Positions 286-10,431 of a DNA stretch of 64,000 nt are shown in pieces. Source of the DNA: Nitrosomonas sp. (GTDB lineage Bacteria > Pseudomonadota > Gammaproteobacteria > Burkholderiales > Nitrosomonadaceae); assembly GCA_024281995.1 (NCBI GenBank), contig JAMWZW010000003.1:1-64000 (forward strand), written 5' to 3'. Both the position numbers and the translations under genes were made by a program. Every line of letters starts with the position of its first letter. The stretch's first letter is position 1. The notes under the pieces are model-generated. The model made no database searches and was not told the DNA's origin. It was given only the letters and a program-made list of their open reading frames with translations.

Positions 286-750
286 CTAGTAAGTACACCA
301 GCAATACGGTCTCAAATATCCCATAGGATCCGTATAAAAGCCTGAGCATGCTAGATGGCTACCTCTACAATGAGCAGCATTAACATCTCCACTACCACTT
401 ACTATTTGCATGAGAAAGCTTTGTACTTTCTTATCATCATAAGGTGGTTTGGAATCAAGAATTTTACTCGGTGTGATTAACTCATATTTTTTTTTACCAC
501 CTTCACCTTCAATGACAGCAAGAATATAGCTCGTATTCTTATCAAAGGTAATTGTCATTTCACCATTCCCTGATCCCTCGCCTCCCGATAAAGTTGGTAC
601 GACTCTATTTTCTACTTTTATTTCATCTGCAAGCAACAAAGCATCAGGTGAAACATCAGCTTTTATGAGCTTTCCAATTACTAGCAGTGAAAATACTAGC
701 AACAATCCAAAGCATAAAACGACTGAAATAGTTGTTTTTGGATATTTCAT
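286..750 (-). CDS. Small exported hypothetical protein with C-terminal cysteine cluster
   Basis: I do not recognise this 154-residue protein. It starts with a basic residue and a hydrophobic segment at about residues 8-28, which is a signal peptide or single membrane anchor, so most of it should lie in the periplasm. A Gly/Ser-rich linker (about 55-63) follows. The last 30 residues hold four cysteines in the pattern HCx6C then CWC just before the C-terminus, which could form two disulfides or a metal site. It ends 13 bp before the start-side neighbour's stop codon and lies on the same strand as the FecR/TPR/barrel gene, so co-transcription is likely. This could be a short secreted peptide or maturation product, but that is inference. 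Confidence 0.5.
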   Translation of the reverse strand: MKYPKTTISVVLCFGLLLVFSLLVIGKLIKADVSPDALLLADEIKVENRVVPTLSGGEGSGNGEMTITFDKNTSYILAVIEGEGGKKKYELITPSKILDSKPPYDDKKVQSFLMQIVSGSGDVNAAHCRGSHLACSGFYTDPMGYLRPYCWCTY

Positions 751-763
751 AATTGTTCTCCTT

Positions 764-3700
764 TTAAAAATTTAAGGTTAATCGTACAAGAAATGTACGA
801 GTGGGGGTATAACGAGGTGCTAATGGTTCTGATACAAAAAATTGTGAGTTTCTAAAATAAAAATCCTCATCGAGAAGATTCTTGGCTTCAAAGCTAAGCA
901 ACCCTTTTCGCGACGGAAATCTATAGCCCGCTGCTGCATCTAACAAGAAGAAACTATTATTCCCTTCAGTTCTTCCAATCGTTGGATTAAATGGAATAGG
1001 AGATCCTCTTTCAAGATCCTGATTTATATATGTCCCTGTTAAATTGGAAAATAATCCATTCGGATTAAAATACTTGATGGCAATAGGAACACTTAGCGTT
1101 TGAATTTTCTTTGGATTTCTATCATGTGTATCACGAATAAATTTTTCAAACTGGAACTCGCCAGTAACAGACCAATTTGAATTAATGATTGTATAAAGAT
1201 AGGAACGATAAATTTGCTCTTTCTGTTTATCTGAAGTAGCAAAAAATGTTGGAACCTCGAGATCTCGTATTGTTGCTTCTATGCCGCCATACAAATTGTT
1301 TAAAATCCGAATATCCAAACCTGCTCCTCTACGCTTTGATTTTGTTCCGTTTGGATCATCAAAAAATTGATTAAAGCCTGCTACTTGTGTCGGCTCAATC
1401 GTTTGCTGCGTAATCAAATCTGACTTTACAGTTTCAAACCAAGCTAAACGTAACCTCGATTTGTCTGTAATATCCCATTGCACGCCAAATTTTGGATCGA
1501 TTTCATTTATTCTAATAGGCTTAAATTGCAGAGGAGGCGAATACTCAAAAATTTCACCATCAGAATATCTCCCAATCTCAGAAGATTTGTATGCGTTATA
1601 GCTTAAACCCAATGTAGTCGTAATATCCCTTGGCAAGGACCAATTAGAATATAGGTAAGCGTTATCGCGCTCATTTGTTGTTTTCCTTAAAGATGGAAGG
1701 ATTTGTGGAGGAGGTGCTAAAGGAGAGACAATTCCTGAGTAATCATACTCCGCCCGAGAAATCCCACCTCCCATAATAATATTAAAAAATTTTTCACGAA
1801 ATAAATGTTGTGCTTCAACCTGATAGCGGTCACTGTGAATAGATTCCAGGTAAAGATCATTATTTTCGTTAGGAAAAGCTTTTGTATTATTGTTCGCATA
1901 TATTGTTGAAACAATAAGATCCTGATTGGGAGAAATTGCATACCGCGCTCCTACACGCACCGAATCTTCTTTCACTGCTCTCTTTTTATCTCTAGAAAAC
2001 ACTTTGGGATTAAAATCTAGCTCAATATCCCCATGCTCTTTTTCCCGTCTGCGCACTTCCGTCTGGATATTCAGCTTAGACGTTACAGCATGTTGGATAA
2101 ATGCATTATAGATATTATGGTTCTGATCATTATTCGGACGAAAACCATTGGTCTCATAATGGAATTGCCCCAAGCTGATTGACGTACGTTCATAAAGCTT
2201 GGAAAGTACTATCTCATTTCCTAATGCACCATTATTTCCTGCAATTCCCGAGGCTACTACTTGAGATTTATTGCGTTCCATAAGTGGCGCAAATTCATTA
2301 AAACCTGCTGCAGTGGGGCCTGTACTGGTGATAATATTAAGATCGGCTACCGCCATATGCGGTTGTACCGGATTTACATTGATTGGCTGTAACAATTGCG
2401 CTTGCAGCAATTCACTGATACGGGCAATTTCGTGTCGCGGGGTATTGGCGTAAGTATCCGATAAGAAACGATGTGCTGAATGGTTTGATGGATCGAAACT
2501 CAGTGACTTGGCTGTTTCCATCACTGCACGTCTTTCAAATCCCAGATTCTCAAAAATCCTTGCCAAGCTTGAACCCCGAGCTGCTTCATCGCGGTCAAGG
2601 AGGAATTTGGAGCGATATACCGCACGATTGTTGTTCAGTTCTATGGATTTTTGGATATCCCTCAACGCCTCAATAGGGCGATTTTGCGTCTGCTTCTGAA
2701 TCGCATCATAAAACCATGGCGTTGGATCTTTCGGATCGCGCTCTTTGGCGAGATCAAACTGGGTGCTCGACAATGAATAACGTTTCTCCTCAAAATAGGC
2801 TTTGCCTAAATAGCTACGGATTAACGAATTAGCGGGATCAAGACTCGCTGCAATTTCAAGTTCGATGCGACCATTATCCAAATCGCCCTCGCGTATTAAA
2901 GCAATCCCCAAACCCAATCGCGGCATTGGATCGGTTTGATCAAGGGCAATTGCTTGTATAAAAGTTTCTTTTGCTGTTTCGATTTCGACTTGTAGCAATT
3001 GTGCAAAGCCAAGTATGGTGTGTGTTTTAGCCACGGTAGAATCCAAACGTACTGCATTTTGTGCTGCATTCAGTGCACGATCCAAGTCTCCCAGAGACAT
3101 TTGCAGCTCAGCCGACCTTGCCCACGCAAGCGTGTTTTGTGGATCGAGTGTAAGAGACTTTTGTACACTTTCCAATGCGGCTTCAATTTCAAAATGTGCT
3201 TGCTGCGTATAAGACAGTGCAAGATGTGCGACGGCTGATTCTGGATTGAGCGCAACTGCTTGAGTAGCTAGTTCAAGTGCTTTAACTTTCTCATTTTGCA
3301 CCACCGCAATAATCGCTAGTAGTGCATGTGCATCACTGTTATTCGGTTCCAGTTGAAGCACTTGTTGAATGGCTGTATTGGCCTCATCCGCTTGGCCTAC
3401 AGTCAGTAAACGGCTCGCTTGACGAATCAATGCATTCATAACCCTCTTATCTTCTAATTGATTGTCCTGCAAGTAACTCAAGATAGCTGGATAATAGAGC
3501 GCCCATTGCACGGCATCAATTGGCCGAATAATGATTTCTTTACGCGGTGCTTGCCCATTATAGGTAATAGCCGCTTCATGATCGTTTAGTGCAATATTGC
3601 CCAAATCGTTAGTGACAGCTACCCTACCCTCATAAACAACAACTTTAGCACTACCCTCATGCAGGCCAACAAAAAATTCTGTTCCCTCAACACTAGCATT

Positions 3701-4135
3701 GACAAACGGCGTTCTTATTTTGAATGGCTTGGGTGTGCGTGTAATGATATGTATCGCACCTTCGAACAAATCCATTGGCCAACTGTCGTTTTTTTTGGGT
3801 AGATCCGGAAAGGTAATGCTTGTCTTCTGATCAAGCCGCAGCATACTATCGTTACTTAAGCGTAATGCCGCACGACTATGGGATCGGGCACGAATCATAT
3901 CGCCTGCACAAAGAATGGTATCCGAACCAACGCGCTGCCAAATAGCCTCGTGCATTCTCCGTACTTCAATGATGCCTTGTATCGATACAATTCGTGCAAC
4001 TTCCAATTTGCAGGTTGGCGTCGCATAGCTTTTGCCTATATATGCGCCCCAACAAGCCACCGTAAAAACAGTGAATAGCATCGTTGAGAAATTTCTGTGA
4101 TAACAGTAAATCGCGATTGCCCAGCATATTTTCAT
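764..4135 (-). CDS. FecR domain-TPR-outer membrane beta-barrel fusion protein
   Basis: This 1123-residue protein has three parts. Residues of about 20-40 form an N-terminal hydrophobic export signal. About 45-200 is a FecR-type domain (VQRxGSDTxLxxGDxIRxxSxSRAxLRL-like pattern, then VEGTEFxV and VxVYEGxVAV). About 205-560 is a run of TPR helices rich in LGxAxLxxGDxxxA motifs. About 600-1123 is Tyr/Asn-rich beta structure that ends with a TonB-receptor-like NLLDEDFYF motif, a PxRTFLVRLTL segment and a terminal Phe, the usual outer-membrane barrel signature. No plug domain is obvious. The family role is unclear; FecR domains in periplasm sense ligands or scaffold signalling. The gene follows the CHASE2 cyclase gene on the same strand after a 255-bp gap. 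Confidence 0.7.
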   Translation of the reverse strand: MKICWAIAIYCYHRNFSTMLFTVFTVACWGAYIGKSYATPTCKLEVARIVSIQGIIEVRRMHEAIWQRVGSDTILCAGDMIRARSHSRAALRLSNDSMLRLDQKTSITFPDLPKKNDSWPMDLFEGAIHIITRTPKPFKIRTPFVNASVEGTEFFVGLHEGSAKVVVYEGRVAVTNDLGNIALNDHEAAITYNGQAPRKEIIIRPIDAVQWALYYPAILSYLQDNQLEDKRVMNALIRQASRLLTVGQADEANTAIQQVLQLEPNNSDAHALLAIIAVVQNEKVKALELATQAVALNPESAVAHLALSYTQQAHFEIEAALESVQKSLTLDPQNTLAWARSAELQMSLGDLDRALNAAQNAVRLDSTVAKTHTILGFAQLLQVEIETAKETFIQAIALDQTDPMPRLGLGIALIREGDLDNGRIELEIAASLDPANSLIRSYLGKAYFEEKRYSLSSTQFDLAKERDPKDPTPWFYDAIQKQTQNRPIEALRDIQKSIELNNNRAVYRSKFLLDRDEAARGSSLARIFENLGFERRAVMETAKSLSFDPSNHSAHRFLSDTYANTPRHEIARISELLQAQLLQPINVNPVQPHMAVADLNIITSTGPTAAGFNEFAPLMERNKSQVVASGIAGNNGALGNEIVLSKLYERTSISLGQFHYETNGFRPNNDQNHNIYNAFIQHAVTSKLNIQTEVRRREKEHGDIELDFNPKVFSRDKKRAVKEDSVRVGARYAISPNQDLIVSTIYANNNTKAFPNENNDLYLESIHSDRYQVEAQHLFREKFFNIIMGGGISRAEYDYSGIVSPLAPPPQILPSLRKTTNERDNAYLYSNWSLPRDITTTLGLSYNAYKSSEIGRYSDGEIFEYSPPLQFKPIRINEIDPKFGVQWDITDKSRLRLAWFETVKSDLITQQTIEPTQVAGFNQFFDDPNGTKSKRRGAGLDIRILNNLYGGIEATIRDLEVPTFFATSDKQKEQIYRSYLYTIINSNWSVTGEFQFEKFIRDTHDRNPKKIQTLSVPIAIKYFNPNGLFSNLTGTYINQDLERGSPIPFNPTIGRTEGNNSFFLLDAAAGYRFPSRKGLLSFEAKNLLDEDFYFRNSQFFVSEPLAPRYTPTRTFLVRLTLNF

Positions 4136-4339: not shown

Positions 4340-4353
4340 GTGAGAATTCTCAC
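4340..4353. promoter_or_regulatory. 14-bp perfect palindrome GTGAGAATTCTCAC
   Basis: A perfect inverted repeat lies in the 255-bp gap between the CHASE2 cyclase gene and the FecR/TPR/barrel gene, both on the minus strand. It is about 205 bp upstream of the barrel gene's start and 38 bp beyond the cyclase stop. It has no T-run beside it, so an operator is more likely than a terminator. The cognate regulator is unknown. Confidence 0.35.
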
Positions 4354-4390
4354 ATGCAAAATCATTGCATCTGCTTTTAAAATCTACTGG

Positions 4391-6625
4391 TTATTTACTA
4401 TCTATCCTTGAAATCGGCCAAGGATCACAAGGCGGATTATCTCTGCAACGCAAACACAAAGAAAGAAAATACTGCGTTGGACCATCAGCAGGAAATACCT
4501 TGAGAATTTCTAAAAAATCTTCACACGCTTCATTCCATTGTTTCAACTGATAAGCATCTAAGGCACGGGCAAAGATTTCACATAACCATACCTGTTCTTG
4601 AGTGGCTAATTGGAGATGCGTAATAAGTTCAAATAATTTCACGGGCCTCACTCTTCCAGGTAATAAAAAATCACCTAAGGGGCGTATCAAAAAACTTTTC
4701 AAGCCACTCACCACAGTATCTGATAACAAGATATGGGTTTTGAGAATTTTGTTCGCGTTCTGAATCCGATTTGCTGTATTCACAACATCGCCAGTAACCC
4801 TGTAAACACCGTCCTTTTCATTCAAAGACATACTGCCAAAATGTAATCCAATCCGGGTTGGCAGCGGCACTGTGTTAGGCTTATTGAAATAGGCAATTGC
4901 AAAGTTTAAATCGAGCGACGCTTGGCATGCGTGTGTCCGAATATCTGAATTTACGGATTTCTTACTCCACTGGAAAAATTTCCGGGTTATTGGATTCACC
5001 GACTCAGGAAGCCAAATAGAAATTGATGAATCTCCCGTAGTATCCATAACCCTTCCTCGATGAAGACTAACCGCACTCCTCAATACCGCGCGATATTCAT
5101 TCATTAGCCTTTCGAGATCGGAAGGATCCATTGCTTCAGACACAGTGGTATAACCTTCGATATCCGTAGCAAGGCATACTCCTAGAAATCTTCCTTCATC
5201 CTCATCAATAATTCGATCCAGAATTTCATCCGGACCTGAGCTACCCAGAAAATCTTCAAAAGAAAGAATTTTTAAAACCCAAACAACTATCAAAGTCAGT
5301 ACAATCTGGAAAATCGGAATAATAAGTGGCAGCCAAATAACCGCTACTTTAAAAAATGAATAAGCAATAAAGATATAGCCGGCGGTAACCAAGACACCCA
5401 AAGCAATGGCTTTCCGGGAAGAAAGCACCAATAAGATAATGCCGATCAACAAACCAAACAAGAATAAAAACACCGTACTTCCCACAAGCGGTAAAGGTCT
5501 GACAGGCTTGTTTTCTAATAAATTTGCGAAAGCCGTAGCAGCAATCTCGACACCGCTAATAAAAAGTCCATCTGGATTCGAAAAAATCGTGTGGTAATCG
5601 TCGCGCACAATATCCTGCTCAGATTGAGTCGCACCTGAAAATCCAACAAAAACTACTTTGTCTTTAAAATCGATTGGTGTTGATGGATATTGTGCTAAGT
5701 TGGGTTGTAACGCATGATGATAGGGAATTGTAATAATGCTGCGCGGGGGACCATAGAAATTGAGATAACTTTTTTCGTGGCTTGAATACAGATTCAGCAA
5801 AGATAAAATCATTTTCTTATTGGTATTACTCAAGTTGGAATCTATAGTGAGTTTCGCCTGCATTTGCTGCACGATCTGAGGCTGATTGACAAAAATATGG
5901 CGTAGCTTGAAGACCAAGTCTTCGATATCATCCACATGCCGAGGCAATTGTTCTGCAACTATTGGATTCACATCTCGTAACAAGCGGATAAAATCGCCAT
6001 ATATTGGCATCGCAAACATCTGTAAAGCTATCACTGGCACTGTAGGCATATCTCCAGCGCTTGCTTTAAAAGTCCAATAATGATTAACCCTCTCTGTTTT
6101 AGGCACTGCAAAAGGAGCGCGTGCTTTTGCCGCATCTGCAATTAATGGCAACAGTTGATCAGAACCTTCCTGAAAAATACGAGGGGATAGTTCATTATCC
6201 GAAGTGACAAATAATTCCACCTCTTGATAAGATAACCGTTCGGTTAAGATTACATTTCCTGCTGCCTTAATGGCATGTACCAACTGTTCGTCGTGCTCGA
6301 ATGGTGTACTTGGTGAATCAAAAATAAGATCAAAAATAATCACACGGGCACCCGCTTGAACAAGTTGATCAATTAGACGGGCATGAATGTCGCGGGGCCA
6401 CAATCGGGGTTTAATTGGTAAGCCCAATTGCGTAGCTGACGGCTGATCAATGGCAACCACAATTACATCGTGGGGCGCAGTAATCGCGCCGCGCATATGA
6501 AATAACCAGGATAGGCCAAATTTTTCCTCAAGCCATAAGCCTGCGGGTGACAAATAAACAATGACACCTCCCAGACCAATGAGAAATCCGAAAAAAAGAT
6601 GTTTAAGCCACTGAGCCACAATCAC
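4391..6625 (-). CDS. CHASE2-domain adenylate/guanylate cyclase
   Basis: This 744-residue membrane protein should make cAMP or cGMP from NTP in response to a periplasmic signal. Residues 10-27 are a membrane segment, about 35-375 a periplasmic CHASE2 sensor (VVAIDxPS, GARVIIFDLIFD, FKDKVVFVGFSG), and about 380-452 three further membrane segments. The class III catalytic domain spans about 478-670: metal-binding aspartates D488 (in TDIEGYT) and D532 (in TTGDSS), and the transition-state pair N616/R620 in VVNTANRI are all present, so it should be active. About 670-744 is a helical, TPR-like tail. CHASE2 cyclases often sit beside FecR/TPR proteins, as here. Purine specificity was not assigned. 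Confidence 0.85.
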   Translation of the reverse strand: MIVAQWLKHLFFGFLIGLGGVIVYLSPAGLWLEEKFGLSWLFHMRGAITAPHDVIVVAIDQPSATQLGLPIKPRLWPRDIHARLIDQLVQAGARVIIFDLIFDSPSTPFEHDEQLVHAIKAAGNVILTERLSYQEVELFVTSDNELSPRIFQEGSDQLLPLIADAAKARAPFAVPKTERVNHYWTFKASAGDMPTVPVIALQMFAMPIYGDFIRLLRDVNPIVAEQLPRHVDDIEDLVFKLRHIFVNQPQIVQQMQAKLTIDSNLSNTNKKMILSLLNLYSSHEKSYLNFYGPPRSIITIPYHHALQPNLAQYPSTPIDFKDKVVFVGFSGATQSEQDIVRDDYHTIFSNPDGLFISGVEIAATAFANLLENKPVRPLPLVGSTVFLFLFGLLIGIILLVLSSRKAIALGVLVTAGYIFIAYSFFKVAVIWLPLIIPIFQIVLTLIVVWVLKILSFEDFLGSSGPDEILDRIIDEDEGRFLGVCLATDIEGYTTVSEAMDPSDLERLMNEYRAVLRSAVSLHRGRVMDTTGDSSISIWLPESVNPITRKFFQWSKKSVNSDIRTHACQASLDLNFAIAYFNKPNTVPLPTRIGLHFGSMSLNEKDGVYRVTGDVVNTANRIQNANKILKTHILLSDTVVSGLKSFLIRPLGDFLLPGRVRPVKLFELITHLQLATQEQVWLCEIFARALDAYQLKQWNEACEDFLEILKVFPADGPTQYFLSLCLRCRDNPPCDPWPISRIDSK

Positions 6626-6791
6626 ATCTGCTTAAAAACATGTTTTTAACGAAAACCACCATCGCTTATGAAGGAAAAAACTAAAAAATTCTCACCTTGT
6701 AGATTACTATGCTGATGCAATTGTAATTGAGACACTTTTGTGGGATAAAAACCGTGCGCTATCGATTACTTAAATTTGCAGTACTACTATG

Positions 6792-6815
6792 TTGTGATAT
6801 TCACAATTGTGTGAA
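6792..6815. promoter_or_regulatory. Overlapping CRP/FNR-like palindromes upstream of the cyclase gene
   Basis: Two overlapping inverted repeats are visible: TTGTGA-TAT-TCACAA (6792-6806) and TTCACA-ATTG-TGTGAA (6800-6815). They sit about 170 bp upstream of the CHASE2 cyclase ATG, in the 231-bp gap after the glycosyltransferase gene. The half-sites resemble TGTGA of CRP sites, but the spacers (3 and 4 bp) are shorter than the usual 6 bp. A link to the cNMP-binding protein at the window's left end is speculative. Confidence 0.3.
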
Positions 6816-6856
6816 AATTAGTAAAAATAATCCCGTTACTCTGATCGAATCGCACC

Positions 6857-7747
6857 TCAAATGGGAATGCGAAAGTGTCTGAAGAACCATTCATCACTAC
6901 GTTCTCGTCGCTTGCTCCATGCAGCTCGATGTATCATGGTATCACTTTCCAGAAGCGCAAGTATCTGCTCAGAGAAATGCGGTGTATGCTTCAATGCTTC
7001 GACAACTCGTGCAAATCTTTCGGAAGTAAAATGCAGTAGAGCCGTACGCAGTCTATTATAGATCAGTTCGGGAGGGCGCACATGATAGGGGGGGTGATCT
7101 CGGAACAGATGATGTACGACCACGCGCGGCTGCACAACAACTTGATAACCCATAAGCCAACAACGTATGCTCTGCTCTTCACCTTCACTACCAATATGCT
7201 TCATACCCGGATCATATTGACCAAAAGAGAGGAAATCCTCGGTTCGTAATGCTTGGCAACCGCCTGGCAAAAGCGGCACTTGATGAACGTCGAATGATCG
7301 TTGCGGAAGCCAGACCATATCAAGCGCTGGTGTTCCCCAACTACAACCGACGCCGATACCGGCATTCGGCCGATTCAAATCTGCAAAAGCACAACCCACC
7401 ATAGCAATGGTTGGATCTAATAGTGGCGCAATTAATCCTTCTAACCAGTTCTGCGGCGTGTAGCAATGAGCATCGATAAACACAATATACTGCCCTTTCG
7501 CTTCACGCCCACCTAAATTTCGTGCTCGTCCTGGACCTTGTCGCTCACCTGCAACAATTTTGAGTCGAGGATCACCACAAAGCTGCAAAAGTCTCCTTAT
7601 CGAATTATCGGTTGAACCATCATCAACGACAATAATTTCAAAGTCAAATACTCCATTACTATTGGTAAGAATCCAATAGACCGTATAGGCAAGATAAGTC
7701 CCCTCGTTACGAGTCGGAATCACAATACTAACTTCTGGCGCTGGCAT
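6857..7747 (-). CDS. Family 2 glycosyltransferase at the end of the borosin-type operon
   Basis: The protein (296 residues from the ATG at 7747) is a GT-A fold glycosyltransferase that would move a sugar from a nucleotide donor. Its N-terminus reads PEVSIVIPTRNEG, followed by EIIVVDDGSTDNS, GPGRARNLGG and VFIDAHCY; the usual DxD metal site appears as DAH. An open frame extends to a TTG at 7768, but the ATG places the first strand normally. It has no membrane helices and no signal peptide. It lies 57 bp after the N-methyltransferase stop codon on the same strand and is the last gene of the group. GT2 is not a usual borosin partner, so it may glycosylate the peptide or simply be co-transcribed. 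Confidence 0.75.
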   Translation of the reverse strand: MPAPEVSIVIPTRNEGTYLAYTVYWILTNSNGVFDFEIIVVDDGSTDNSIRRLLQLCGDPRLKIVAGERQGPGRARNLGGREAKGQYIVFIDAHCYTPQNWLEGLIAPLLDPTIAMVGCAFADLNRPNAGIGVGCSWGTPALDMVWLPQRSFDVHQVPLLPGGCQALRTEDFLSFGQYDPGMKHIGSEGEEQSIRCWLMGYQVVVQPRVVVHHLFRDHPPYHVRPPELIYNRLRTALLHFTSERFARVVEALKHTPHFSEQILALLESDTMIHRAAWSKRRERSDEWFFRHFRIPI

Positions 7748-7804
7748 TGCTTTGCTTCTACCCACCAATTGCTTCAGAATCTACATGTCGAGAAACCGTA
7801 AGCA

Positions 7805-8611
7805 TTAGTTGCAAGATTGCGGCATGCGCATACGAATATTCATATCAATGGAAGGCGAACGCGCTGGCGGAATACACAACGTCGATGCCGCTGTGACACC
7901 GGCATACGGCAGTGAGAACAAAGGAATATAACGAATGATGGGGGCACAACCGGGAAAAACACTCGCCTCATAAATAATAGCTTGATGATTAGCAGGATAA
8001 TATTGAGCAAGTCGTTCCAGGAGCAGAGGCATGGATGACGTATCATAAGCGCCAGATTTAAACGACCAATCCCCCAAAACCCCGATCTGCCAAAGAATGA
8101 CGGTACTGGATGTGTCGATAATACGCCCATTGATCATAAAATCGGTCGCTTCGTAGGACTGGCAGCCTGTCATCGCAGGATCTATCCCAACGTCGGCGAA
8201 GAGGCAGTCTTCAGCAGAAATCCCCGGTAACATACGTGCTTCATAGCCGTCGGCGCGTGCACGCCGAATGGCTTCATGCGCAGGCCACGCAAAAACGCCC
8301 GGATGACCATAGAGCGCCACGCAAGTTTTTAGACCTGCACGTACACATTCGAGCATACGTTGAATCATCTGCTCATAGGTTTCAGCCCGCGGCTTGCCTT
8401 CAGCGTAAAAACCGAACAGCGATTCAGCGCCATCCTTATTAAGGCTTTGCACGACATGTTCGGCGATCGGATCACCGACGCAGTAAAGTAATTTCTCGGC
8501 ATTCTTCATCGAAGCAATGCTTTCAACCGTAAGTTGACCGATGACCCTAATACCAGTTCCGACTGCTGTTAGGGATCCGCGCTTTATTTCTTCATTTTTC
8601 GGCACTGCCAT
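7805..8611 (-). CDS. Borosin-type peptide backbone alpha-N-methyltransferase (tetrapyrrole methylase fold)
   Basis: This 268-residue protein has the tetrapyrrole-methylase (SAM-dependent) fold but with the signature of borosin N-methyltransferases such as OphMA and SonM rather than of cobalamin enzymes. A VGTG SAM loop is near residue 17. Y69, R75 and Y79 in FYAEGKPRAETYEQM match the catalytic Tyr/Arg/Tyr set described for OphMA. YGHPGVFA (101-108) and PGISAEDCLFADVGIDP (129-145) are diagnostic. It is a free-standing enzyme, unlike fused fungal borosins, so it should act in trans on a separate precursor. The gene 56 bp upstream encodes a protein that fits that role. It should methylate backbone amides of the precursor core in the cytoplasm. 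Confidence 0.88.
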   Translation of the reverse strand: MAVPKNEEIKRGSLTAVGTGIRVIGQLTVESIASMKNAEKLLYCVGDPIAEHVVQSLNKDGAESLFGFYAEGKPRAETYEQMIQRMLECVRAGLKTCVALYGHPGVFAWPAHEAIRRARADGYEARMLPGISAEDCLFADVGIDPAMTGCQSYEATDFMINGRIIDTSSTVILWQIGVLGDWSFKSGAYDTSSMPLLLERLAQYYPANHQAIIYEASVFPGCAPIIRYIPLFSLPYAGVTAASTLCIPPARSPSIDMNIRMRMPQSCN

Positions 8612-8667
8612 TGTAATTTTTCCTCGTTTTATCTAAAAAACAATACACAATTTCTCGTGCGAAAATC

Positions 8668-9123
8668 TTATGGATTCGGATTCTTACGAATCTTGCTTAC
8701 ACTCCCTTGCTGCTCCTTGGAAGATGGTGAAGAAACAGGTTGTTGTGGCGCGACTTGACAGGATGCAGCATCCACCGCCGCAGTACTGGTCGGTATACCG
8801 ACAACCGCGCCCCACATCAGTAACTGGCTATAATAGTTCATAAACCACTGTGCAACGACAGGGTCAGAAGACAATACACCCATGACAGTTTCTGCATTCT
8901 GCCGCGATTTCTCAAGTGATTCTTCATGAGCGGCAGCATTACCCATCAGTGCAGCATGTACTCTCAATGGGTCACCGCTCATCAATGCCACTTGTGCTTT
9001 TGCTTCGATGCTTTCGCGTTCCATGATCACCTTAGGATCTTGTAGATAGTCGCTCAAAGTTTGCGGCTCTACAGCTAATTTAGTCAGAAAATCTAGAATT
9101 TCCCTACTCATTTTCACTGTCAT
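8668..9123 (-). CDS. Putative split-borosin precursor peptide
   Basis: This 151-residue protein starts with a helical segment at about residues 7-60 (REILDFLTKL, SDYLQDPKVIMER, VALMSGDPLRVHAAL) that matches from memory the borosin-binding domain of SonA-type precursors, including the 'YxxxPxxxM' and 'xMxGD' positions. The C-terminal part is less ordered and contains a hydrophobic stretch (about 90-112, WFMNYYSQLLMWGAVVGI) and a Pro/Ser/Gln-rich tail with one Cys (122) ending in RKNPNP. The methylated core should be in this C-terminal half; I cannot say where. It has no signal peptide. The start has a GAGTG site 7 nt upstream. It lies 17 bp after the hexapeptide-repeat gene and 56 bp before the methyltransferase. 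Confidence 0.72.
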   Translation of the reverse strand: MTVKMSREILDFLTKLAVEPQTLSDYLQDPKVIMERESIEAKAQVALMSGDPLRVHAALMGNAAAHEESLEKSRQNAETVMGVLSSDPVVAQWFMNYYSQLLMWGAVVGIPTSTAAVDAASCQVAPQQPVSSPSSKEQQGSVSKIRKNPNP

Positions 9124-9140
9124 TTTTCACTCGCGTTATA

Positions 9141-9539
9141 TTAACCAAATTGTGACGGTATCGTGAACTGCGGCGGTATCGTGAACTGCGGCGGTATCGT
9201 GAACTGCGGCGGTATCGTGAACTGCGGTGGTATCGTGAACTGCGGTGGTATCGTGAACTGCGGCGGTATCGTGAACTGCGGCGGTATCGTGAACTGCGGC
9301 GGTATCGTGAACTGCGGCGGTATCGTGAACTGCGGCGGTATCGTGAACTGCGGTGGTATCGTGAACTGCGGCGGTATCGTGAACTGCGGCGGTATCGTGA
9401 ACTGCGGCGGTATCGTGAACTGCGGCGGTATCGTGAACTGCGGCGGTATCGTGAACTGCGGTGGTATCGTGAACTGCGGTGGTATCGTGAACTGCGGTGG
9501 TATCGTGAACTGCGGTGGTATCATTTGCGGAGGAAACAT
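9141..9539 (-). CDS. Hexapeptide-repeat protein, (IPPQFT)20, first gene of the borosin-type operon
   Basis: The 132-residue product is almost nothing but repeats: a divergent first unit MFPPQM, 20 identical IPPQFT units and a last unit IPSQFG before TAA. The ATG at 9539 has a GGAG site at a good distance (GGAGATCACA-ATG) and a plausible promoter behind it, so translation is likely. There is no signal peptide, no Cys and almost no charge. The repeats have no leader of their own. It is 17 bp upstream of the borosin-type precursor gene. It could be a multi-core substrate, a structural or binding peptide, or an expanded minisatellite that happens to stay open. Family not recognised. Confidence 0.55.
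   Translation of the reverse strand: MFPPQMIPPQFTIPPQFTIPPQFTIPPQFTIPPQFTIPPQFTIPPQFTIPPQFTIPPQFTIPPQFTIPPQFTIPPQFTIPPQFTIPPQFTIPPQFTIPPQFTIPPQFTIPPQFTIPPQFTIPPQFTIPSQFG
9162..9521. repeat. 18-bp tandem repeat, 20 units
   Basis: Twenty head-to-tail copies of an 18-bp unit (plus strand GGTATCGTGAACTGCGGY). They differ at only one base, C or T, which is a synonymous CCG/CCA proline codon in the minus frame. Read left to right the base is CCCTTCCCCCTCCCCCTTTT, so a six-unit block (CCCCCT) appears twice in a row, a sign of block duplication. The unit length is a multiple of three, so copy-number change would alter protein length without a frameshift. Confidence 0.97.
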
Positions 9540-9554
9540 TGTGATCTCCTATTA

Positions 9555-9582
9555 ATTATAATAGTGTGTAAATACACCTCAA
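9555..9582 (-). promoter_or_regulatory. Predicted sigma70 promoter with palindromic operator for the borosin-type operon
   Basis: On the minus strand TTGAGG (9582-9577), a 16-bp spacer and TATAAT (9560-9555) lie 15 bp upstream of the ATG of the hexapeptide-repeat gene. A perfect palindrome GTGTAAATACAC (9566-9577) fills the spacer, the classic place for a repressor or activator site. The GTAAATAC core is shared with a double palindrome at 59537-59572. Confidence 0.45.
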
Positions 9583-9756
9583 CATCAGATTTAAATTGAG
9601 AGTATGTTAAAACGATATTACCCTCTTTTTGAATATTGCCACCTGCCTGAACCTCTGTCAAGAAATCTGCAAATAAACGAATATAAACAGTGAATTACTA
9701 ATTTTTTCAAAAAATTATTATCCAGCAATAAATTTTAAATTGTTTATAATGAAGGT

Positions 9757-10131
9757 ATGAACGTACACAACTGTAAATGGATATTGGTTTTTTTCATGCT
9801 ATGGCTGCCCATGCAAGGCGCTGTAGCAGCTATTTTGTCAGTGTGTGTACAGGAAAATTTCAACCGTTACGATAACCAATCGGTAATAACCATTGACAAC
9901 CACCATCATGAGGATTGTCATACGCAAACAAGCGACGCCAATAATCATATGTTAGCTAATTTGCCGTGTAATGACACAGCATGCGACACATATAGTCATA
10001 CTCCGATTATGCAAGAGTATGCTGTAGCATTGCTGGCAAATAAAAATTCTGCTGTGCCTATATTTCATTCCGGTTTTATCTCCTTTATACCGGAACAGCC
10101 GCAACACCCCCCATTGACTGTCTCCTTTTAA
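9757..10131 (+). CDS. Small periplasmic His/Cys-containing protein of the Cus operon
   Basis: The 124-residue product begins with a signal peptide (residues 1-25, hydrophobic VFFMLWLPMQGAVAA). The mature part has a HHHEDCHTQ cluster near residue 50 and further Cys and His residues near 72-82, which suggests metal binding in the periplasm. It has a GAAGG ribosome site. It is the first of three small genes ahead of cusC, and similar His/Cys-bearing small proteins are common in CusCBA/CzcCBA operons. I do not recognise the family by name. A role in metal capture or sensing is inferred. Confidence 0.6.
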   Translation: MNVHNCKWILVFFMLWLPMQGAVAAILSVCVQENFNRYDNQSVITIDNHHHEDCHTQTSDANNHMLANLPCNDTACDTYSHTPIMQEYAVALLANKNSAVPIFHSGFISFIPEQPQHPPLTVSF

Positions 10132-10193
10132 ATTCCGCCTGTAATTGGGCGTCGTATTACATAAAATCCGCATCTTAGGGAATCTCTGAGTAA

Positions 10194-10265
10194 TCACCAT
10201 TTTGAGCACAGCGGGAAATTTATAGCGCTGATTTACTGAAATTCCTTGCTGCGTTTGGCATGACA
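10194..10265. repeat. REP/MITE-like dispersed palindromic element, copy 1
   Basis: A roughly 70-bp imperfect palindrome. Its left half, CATTTTGAGCACAGCGGGAAATTT, pairs with a right half ending in TTGCTGCGTTTGGCATGACA. It resembles the elements at 17534-17603 and 31362-31429. Wider inverted repeats (AGGGAATCTCTGA at 10177 and TCAGAGAATCCT at 10278) flank it, so the unit may be larger. It fills most of the 300-bp gap between two Cus-operon genes. Confidence 0.5.
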
Positions 10266-10431
10266 AAGATGGATAGTTCAGAGAATCCTTAGCAGCCGTT
10301 TGCAAGATGCAATGCGTTTTCACAATAAGGATATGATTATCAATAACTATTCTTACGTGAAATAAGCGTGGAAGTGCGGATTTTATATTTTCCTGTTAAG
10401 AATTGATTGAATTTTTTATTTCGGAGATATC

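Follow-up and report, generated by a model that had tools for sequence, protein, structure and literature searches.

In RiPP pathways, the modifying enzyme is usually directed by a leader that forms part of the same chain as the substrate. The split-borosin prototype, SonM/SonA of Shewanella oneidensis, is assigned to type IV (PMC8429565), and class 2 borosins, as outlined in the published scheme of PMC11395268, have the enzyme and the borosin-binding domain (BBD) on one protein and the core on another. The microviridin precursor AMdnA, as presented in PMC5934393, exemplifies a RiPP precursor with several cores. We analyzed a 64,000-nucleotide stretch of a Nitrosomonas sp. contig, referred to here as the window, in which a predicted borosin-type enzyme, a BBD protein and a repeat protein devoid of a BBD are encoded by separate genes (Table 1). 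This three-part combination is not among the four classes given in the legend of PMC11395268. Literature searches found no paper joining borosin and Nitrosomonas and none joining 'leaderless precursor' and RiPP, and a three-part or repeat-core borosin may already have been described in the 2022/2024 split-borosin surveys. According to the preliminary description of the locus, provision of the leader in trans would be a novelty. As such it is not, since class 2 borosins have been published (PMC11395268, as outlined in its scheme) and enzyme-BBD fusions are present in two of the relatives compared below (L045 and L105).

The genes and their order, the homology of the enzyme and of the BBD, the partial conservation of the locus in a second species of the genus (G837) and the comparable layout in relatives are direct observations. 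We estimate at about 0.5 the probability that the first gene, P0001, encodes a leaderless multi-core substrate of the methyltransferase P0003 while P0002 acts as a separate docking protein, and we regard this combination of repeat substrate and free docking domain, with equally balanced odds, as the most economical reading of the locus. A multi-core role for the repeat protein had already been suggested in the preliminary description; it is favored by comparison of the enzyme, the BBD protein, G837 and a Chloroflexota relative, methylation itself being a prediction.

Table 1. Features of the putative borosin operon and its surroundings in the window.
Feature	Position	Strand	Description
AGGAG ribosome-binding site	9546..9550	-	Ends 6 bases before the ATG; read from the sequence
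Repeat gene P0001	9141..9539	-	132 aa, of which 43 are Pro; putative multi-core substrate without a leader
Spacer between repeat gene and P0002	9124..9140	-	17 bp; counterpart in G837 is 23 bp
P0002	8668..9123	-	151 aa; BBD at about 6-64, predicted helices 63-84 and 88-105 (low confidence), disordered tail 106-151
BBD of P0002, residues 6-64	8932..9108	-	Profile, AF2, Foldseek
P0003, borosin-type alpha-N-methyltransferase	7805..8611	-	268 aa; phmmer 2.5e-60 to dbOphMA fusion, 2.9e-60 to SonM
Family 2 glycosyltransferase (GT2)	6857..7768	-	PF00535 7e-27; kept in G837, dN/dS 0.12
CHASE2 + class III cyclase	4391..6625	-	PF05226, PF00211; kept in G837, dN/dS 0.12
FecR + TPR protein, long C-terminal part	764..4135	-	PF04773, TPR families; 67% identical in G837; operon membership uncertain

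Read from 9539 to 9141, the repeat ORF consists of ATG, MFPPQM, 20 units of IPPQFT, IPSQFG and TAA, and this composition, the AGGAG site and the short distance to the next gene all agree with the preliminary description. TRF reports a period of 18, 20.4 copies and 98% matches. Base changes between units had been described as exclusively synonymous CCG/CCA exchanges, which holds inside the 20 units, where only the third position of the first Pro codon varies (A in units 1-4, 10, 16 and 17; G in all others), and fails for the edge units, which differ from the 20 at many bases, some of them non-synonymous. Because this A/G pattern recurs, units 5-10 and 11-16, which are identical, represent one six-unit block present twice, as had been noticed before. 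The synonymous-only variation therefore comes down to one site spread by block duplication, and the coding evidence that it provides is weak.

Several other observations could also be expected of a non-coding or untranslated minisatellite, or of translated noise without function, an explanation that we consider very improbable. Five of the six frames are open across the array, including a plus-strand ORF at 9163-9555, because the period of 18 is a multiple of 3. Codon usage is uninformative and fails to single out the IPPQFT frame: its mean log-odds is -0.01, as compared with -0.40 to +0.15 in the other open frames, and the whole repeat ORF scores 0.002 versus 0.09-0.22 in neighboring genes. 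A promoter had been predicted, and we did find 6 promoter-like sites against 3.0 +/- 2.0 in shuffled sequence; the signal is weak, and the best -10 box beside the repeat gene would put the RNA start at about the ribosome site. The single variable site among the 20 units and the presence of the P0002 gene at high identity in 2 of 85 genomes of the genus also fit a minisatellite. Against it stand the AGGAG-preceded start and a stop 17 bp ahead of P0002. Furthermore, a two-unit pattern searched with up to 3 mismatches gave 19 overlapping matches in the 2.88-Mb genome, all inside the 9141-9539 array, and the reversed pattern, used as a control in the same search, gave none; the repeat thus occupies a single place in the genome instead of being scattered. 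Strand and frame are set by the direction of the operon and the AGGAG, with additional support from G837 and the Chloroflexota relative. Even so, a reading from the antisense frames, which stay open in both of these as well, is conceivable.

The repeat protein begins straight with repeat-like letters, without the combination of a leader and several cores on one chain, and the BBD profile gave no match to it. The best Pfam match has an E-value of 0.093. A single-sequence AlphaFold2 prediction yielded a poor model (mean pLDDT 53.5) that returned 0 matches at E<=10 when searched against the PDB with Foldseek. The earlier suggestion of a self-assembling partner peptide finds no support in these results, although a model of such quality says little against it. 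Two leads were rejected. PRK00892.1 (NCBIfam) would make P0001 a hexapeptide-repeat acyltransferase at an E-value of 7.2e-5, but it scores 22 bits against a cut-off of 207, and we read it as a period-6 match. A tblastn search of plasmids with P0001, for repeats elsewhere, returned 99 records, all below 60% identity and many annotated as pentapeptide-repeat proteins, which we read as low-complexity similarity.

Both partners of the repeat gene resemble described borosin proteins. P0003 is homologous to the methyltransferase domain of OphMA and SonM according to phmmer (Table 1) and PF00590 (E 2.3e-17), and its residues Y69, R75, Y79 and Y101 are invariant in six aligned sequences. All four keep a constant offset in the alignment to OphA, the first three corresponding to its residues Y66, R72 and Y76, the mutants of which are named in PDB titles, and Y101 to Y98. 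P0003 thus appears to be a borosin-type alpha-N-methyltransferase with its catalytic residues in place and predicted activity. For P0002, phmmer against SonA gave an E-value of 0.0034 and the BBD profile 1.1e-27, P0002 itself being among the six seeds of that profile. An AlphaFold2 model based on 12 sequences contains five helices at residues 3-60 (block mean pLDDT 80-97), and SonA chains head its Foldseek matches in the PDB with a TM by target of 0.81 at E 0.027, no match reaching E<=0.001. Judged by sequence and predicted fold, the first ~60 residues of P0002 are a SonA-like BBD. Within the 64-kb window, the profile at E<=0.5 identifies 8671-9126 alone and not P0003, so that neither the fusion of BBD and enzyme typical of class 2 nor the lack of a BBD typical of class 4 applies, while enzyme and BBD protein lie on separate genes as in split borosins (type IV / class 3).

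Comparison with G837, the genome in which P0002 is found at 88% identity among the 85 searched, shows most of the operon to be under purifying selection. The G837 contig is syntenic with the operon (window 4340-9191 at 92%) and its enzyme is 98% identical (dN/dS 0.04). It ends 74 bases past the start of P0002, and these bases, in the same frame, encode PQFT-IPPQFT-VPSQFG followed by a stop. Relative to the last units of the window, the 16 codons contain three synonymous changes and one Ile-to-Val change. Far from being broken in this relative, the frame is intact at its 3' end, over the approximately 2.7 units visible, and both frame and stop are kept although the spacer has changed in length, another observation at odds with a non-coding minisatellite. 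The unit sequence could be compared between the two species, while the number of units is cut off by the end of the contig. That the assembly stops inside the array suggests that the array is perhaps long in G837 too. In a search without a positive control, window positions 9520-10400 gave no match in G837, and the 5' end of the gene was not found there.

The same comparison brings out the main rival to a free docking protein. P0002 could be an ordinary split-borosin precursor with a core of its own in the tail, at about residues 104-117, and the repeat protein a co-transcribed, unmethylated accessory with a scaffold, surface or structural role; we hold this to be possible but less probable. 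SonA-type precursors, in the portrayal of PMC8429565, do hold BBD and core on one chain. Between the window and G837, dN/dS is 0.14 for the BBD part of P0002 and 0.34 for the 86-residue remainder (small counts), 6 of the 18 amino-acid changes in this remainder cluster at residues 105-116, and the tail is predicted to be disordered, features that a core on P0002 itself might show and that count against a multi-core role for P0001. However, residues 88-105 are predicted to be helical (with low confidence), the tail beyond residue 105 is polar, and the repeats sit on another chain. A core in P0002 and a substrate role for the repeat protein are not mutually exclusive.

At E<=0.01, P0002 has matches in 3 of 85 genus genomes, including a weak one (G029, contig C1, 394822-395058; 31%, E 0.0045). 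Among 61 genus genomes, a set that does not contain G837, P0001 was found in its own genome alone and the enzyme in 1. Family-wide, the enzyme is present in 4 of 125 genomes, namely its own, G837, G849 (47%) and G857 (42%), and further afield in 3 of 399 genomes of the order at 1e-30 and, with the threshold at 1e-15, in 10 of 369 genomes of the class; viral contigs contained one relative (41%). The G849 locus encodes its BBD in a short ORF of its own and lacks tandem repeats. The enzyme of G857 (L132, 5496-6809) shares one ORF with a weak BBD match, and a downstream ORF (6871-8607) ends in TTEV repeats, which also occur in similar form near the enzyme of Burkholderia arboris (L033). A leaderless repeat gene is therefore not shared by all relatives.

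A closer counterpart is found in another phylum. The enzyme of a Chloroflexota genome (L034), which ranks by sequence among the nearest relatives outside the family in the best 80 of 562 matches, is 58% identical to P0003, and its ORF (1165-1947) follows a BBD ORF (737-1168). Upstream of the latter lies the 3' end of an ORF reading IVVVGGAAATPPQFPQFPM... with a stop near base 265, and the end of another contig of the same genome (L127) carries an ORF with an ATG that starts MAMNLPVVTPQPQQSVMLSPLAVYAGQAGATPPQFPQFPMQYPMLLAQ... and contains near-identical units. Given the similarity of the units and the fact that both contigs end within repeats, we infer that L127 and L034 hold two parts of one gene cut by the assembly, made of ATPPQFPQFPMQYP-type units rich in PPQF and with no BBD match in either repeat part. 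A leaderless repeat ORF upstream of a BBD gene and an enzyme thus recurs here, although about 470 bp separate it from the BBD ORF, versus 17 bp in the window, and the PPQF in common is so short that composition could account for part of the resemblance. The presence of similarly composed repeat ORFs at the same operon position in other phyla speaks against a minisatellite devoid of function.

A scan of 84,980 species provided 79 loci corresponding to the best 80 of 562 confirmed matches. A quick tree built from 98 enzyme rows places the window in a set of 23 rows, or 22 loci (SH-aLRT 98), the layouts of which were classed by eye from ORF reading and a repeat scan (L051 by the repeat scan alone). 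Within these 22 loci, drawn from the best 80 of 562 matches, a BBD was found in 18 by the profile built from six sequences, P0002 included, and not in L050, L055, L082 and L106. A BBD-less repeat or low-complexity ORF apart from the BBD is present in 6 (the window, L034, L043, L045, L047 and L105), and repeats are fused behind the BBD in 3 (L035, L036 and L037). In 3 others (L050, L082 and L106), with no BBD found, repeats lie on a divergently transcribed subtilase. No repeat ORF was seen in 8 (L039, L040, L042, L046, L048, L051, L052 and L055). L041 has a Pro-rich tail that is not clearly repeated, and the BBD protein of L038 contains a stretch of N residues. An automatic repeat count (8/22 clade loci versus 6/58 outside, among the best 80 of 562 matches) is not relied upon here because several of its fragments are in overlapping wrong frames and L034 was missed.

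The BBD itself changes place within the clade. In L045 and L105 the enzyme itself carries it N-terminally, and in L043 and L047 it is the C-terminal domain of a protein that also has PRMT-type domains; in these four loci, a low-complexity repeat ORF without a BBD or a Pfam repeat assignment lies directly upstream (that of L045 encodes a coiled-coil protein in which a Thr/Pro repeat is located close to the end). That BBD-less repeat ORFs recur beside four other separately placed BBDs, as well as beside the Chloroflexota BBD gene, argues against the repeat protein being a mere accessory to a core in P0002. Since fused precursors exist in the clade (L035, L036 and L037), docking in trans is not required there; this, like the 8 loci in which no repeat ORF was seen, counts against the preferred reading. 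The arginine methyltransferase-like proteins with C-terminal BBD (L043, 5805-6995; L047, 5763-6995) are encoded between a Pro/Arg repeat gene and the borosin-type enzyme. The subtilase-type proteins (L050, 2871-5462; L082, 1487-4054; L106, 2943-5483) bear long TRPTLP- or GYEDPYA-like repeats, and their genes are divergent from a PRMT-like gene and the borosin-type enzyme; a domain scan covering L050 and L082 confirmed the subtilase domain in both. Among the best 80 of 562 matches, a PRMT-like gene occurs in 5 loci, all with Arg throughout the nearby Pro-rich repeats, whereas Arg is absent or sporadic in the 7 other repeat-bearing clade loci (it appears in one unit of L036 and in some units of L037). 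The repeats accordingly look matched to the modifying enzymes, a pairing that also disfavors a core confined to P0002. It is a weak point of the comparison because the five loci are not independent and, in three of them, the repeats are divergently transcribed and no BBD was found. Separately, in the myxococcal BBD precursors L076 and L102 the BBD is followed by numerous AMVYGAG- or AGQAQVVYA-like units.

The genes downstream of P0003 are not generally shared among the scan loci. By phmmer, the cyclase domain has a relative in 1 locus and GT2 in 2 (L028 and L068), and CHASE2, FecR, the C-terminal part of the FecR protein and a 154-aa ORF have 0; Pfam detects cyclase domains beside L036 and L038. 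This last ORF (286-750, minus strand), which comes after the FecR/TPR gene, has a Cys-rich tail and no good family match. The operon offers another candidate modifier: GT2 might O-glycosylate the Thr present in every IPPQFT unit, with the repeat protein modified mainly by this or another operon enzyme and N-methylation minor or absent. The gene is retained in G837. However, its two relatives among the best 80 of 562 matches lie outside the enzyme clade, which places GT2 outside the shared core, and membership in family GT2 alone gives no hint of a peptide acceptor. We judge this explanation unlikely. The host is probably an ammonia-oxidising bacterium because its genome matches PF02461 (ammonia/methane monooxygenase subunit A) in two places; at one of them (contig C21, 56648-57357) the match is divided between two open frames, and a TGA lies within one of the matched segments.

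Under the preferred reading of a leaderless multi-core substrate, P0002 would supply the BBD as a separate protein, docking on the enzyme in the manner of the SonA leader, while the IPPQFT chain would enter the active site of P0003, where the non-proline backbone nitrogens (Ile, Gln, Phe and Thr) would be methylated. Each unit has two prolines that are already without N-H and offers up to four nitrogens for methylation, which makes about 80 in the twenty units. The product would be a repetitive, long chain almost free of N-H or, if a protease encoded elsewhere cuts it, hexapeptide pieces. Expression of the repeat gene, contact of the three proteins, methylation and the fate of the product are the steps of this scheme that we infer. 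A more ambitious version remains tentative and in our opinion has the odds against it: a three-part borosin in which a leaderless hexapeptide-repeat protein becomes a backbone-N-methylated polypeptide with its docking domain in trans, by a logic that recurs in the clade, with the docking domain on various proteins, and that goes together with arginine methylation in loci with Arg-rich repeats. If true, a free docking protein would aim a methyltransferase at a leaderless repeat polymer, making the BBD a plug-in guide for N-methylated polymers, and borosins would not always be small peptides. The clade provides natural layouts, with the BBD on the core, on the enzyme, on a second modifying enzyme or free, for asking whether a leader must be in cis.

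Set beside the described systems, the locus shares with SonM/SonA, as depicted in PMC8429565, a separate alpha-N-methyltransferase homologous over nearly its full length and a partner protein that starts with a BBD. In contrast, the SonA core is on the BBD chain, whereas the operon of the window opens with a repeat gene lacking a BBD, and P0002 is about twice as long. AMdnA, according to the account in PMC5934393, carries several cores for one enzyme on one polypeptide, as is proposed for P0001, but it has three cores, a leader on its own chain and ATP-grasp chemistry. The BBD precursors with tandem-repeat tails of Microvirga (L035 and L036, (QQMPAGAVAPQVAPW)n), Aquisphaera (L037) and Myxococcales (L076 and L102) also place repeat peptides beside a borosin-type enzyme, which for L035-L037 belongs to the same clade; their repeats lie behind the BBD on one chain, unlike those of the window gene. 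Finally, as in the class 2 borosins outlined in PMC11395268, the core candidate has no BBD of its own and docking would take place in trans, but here BBD and enzyme are separate as well, which makes three parts.
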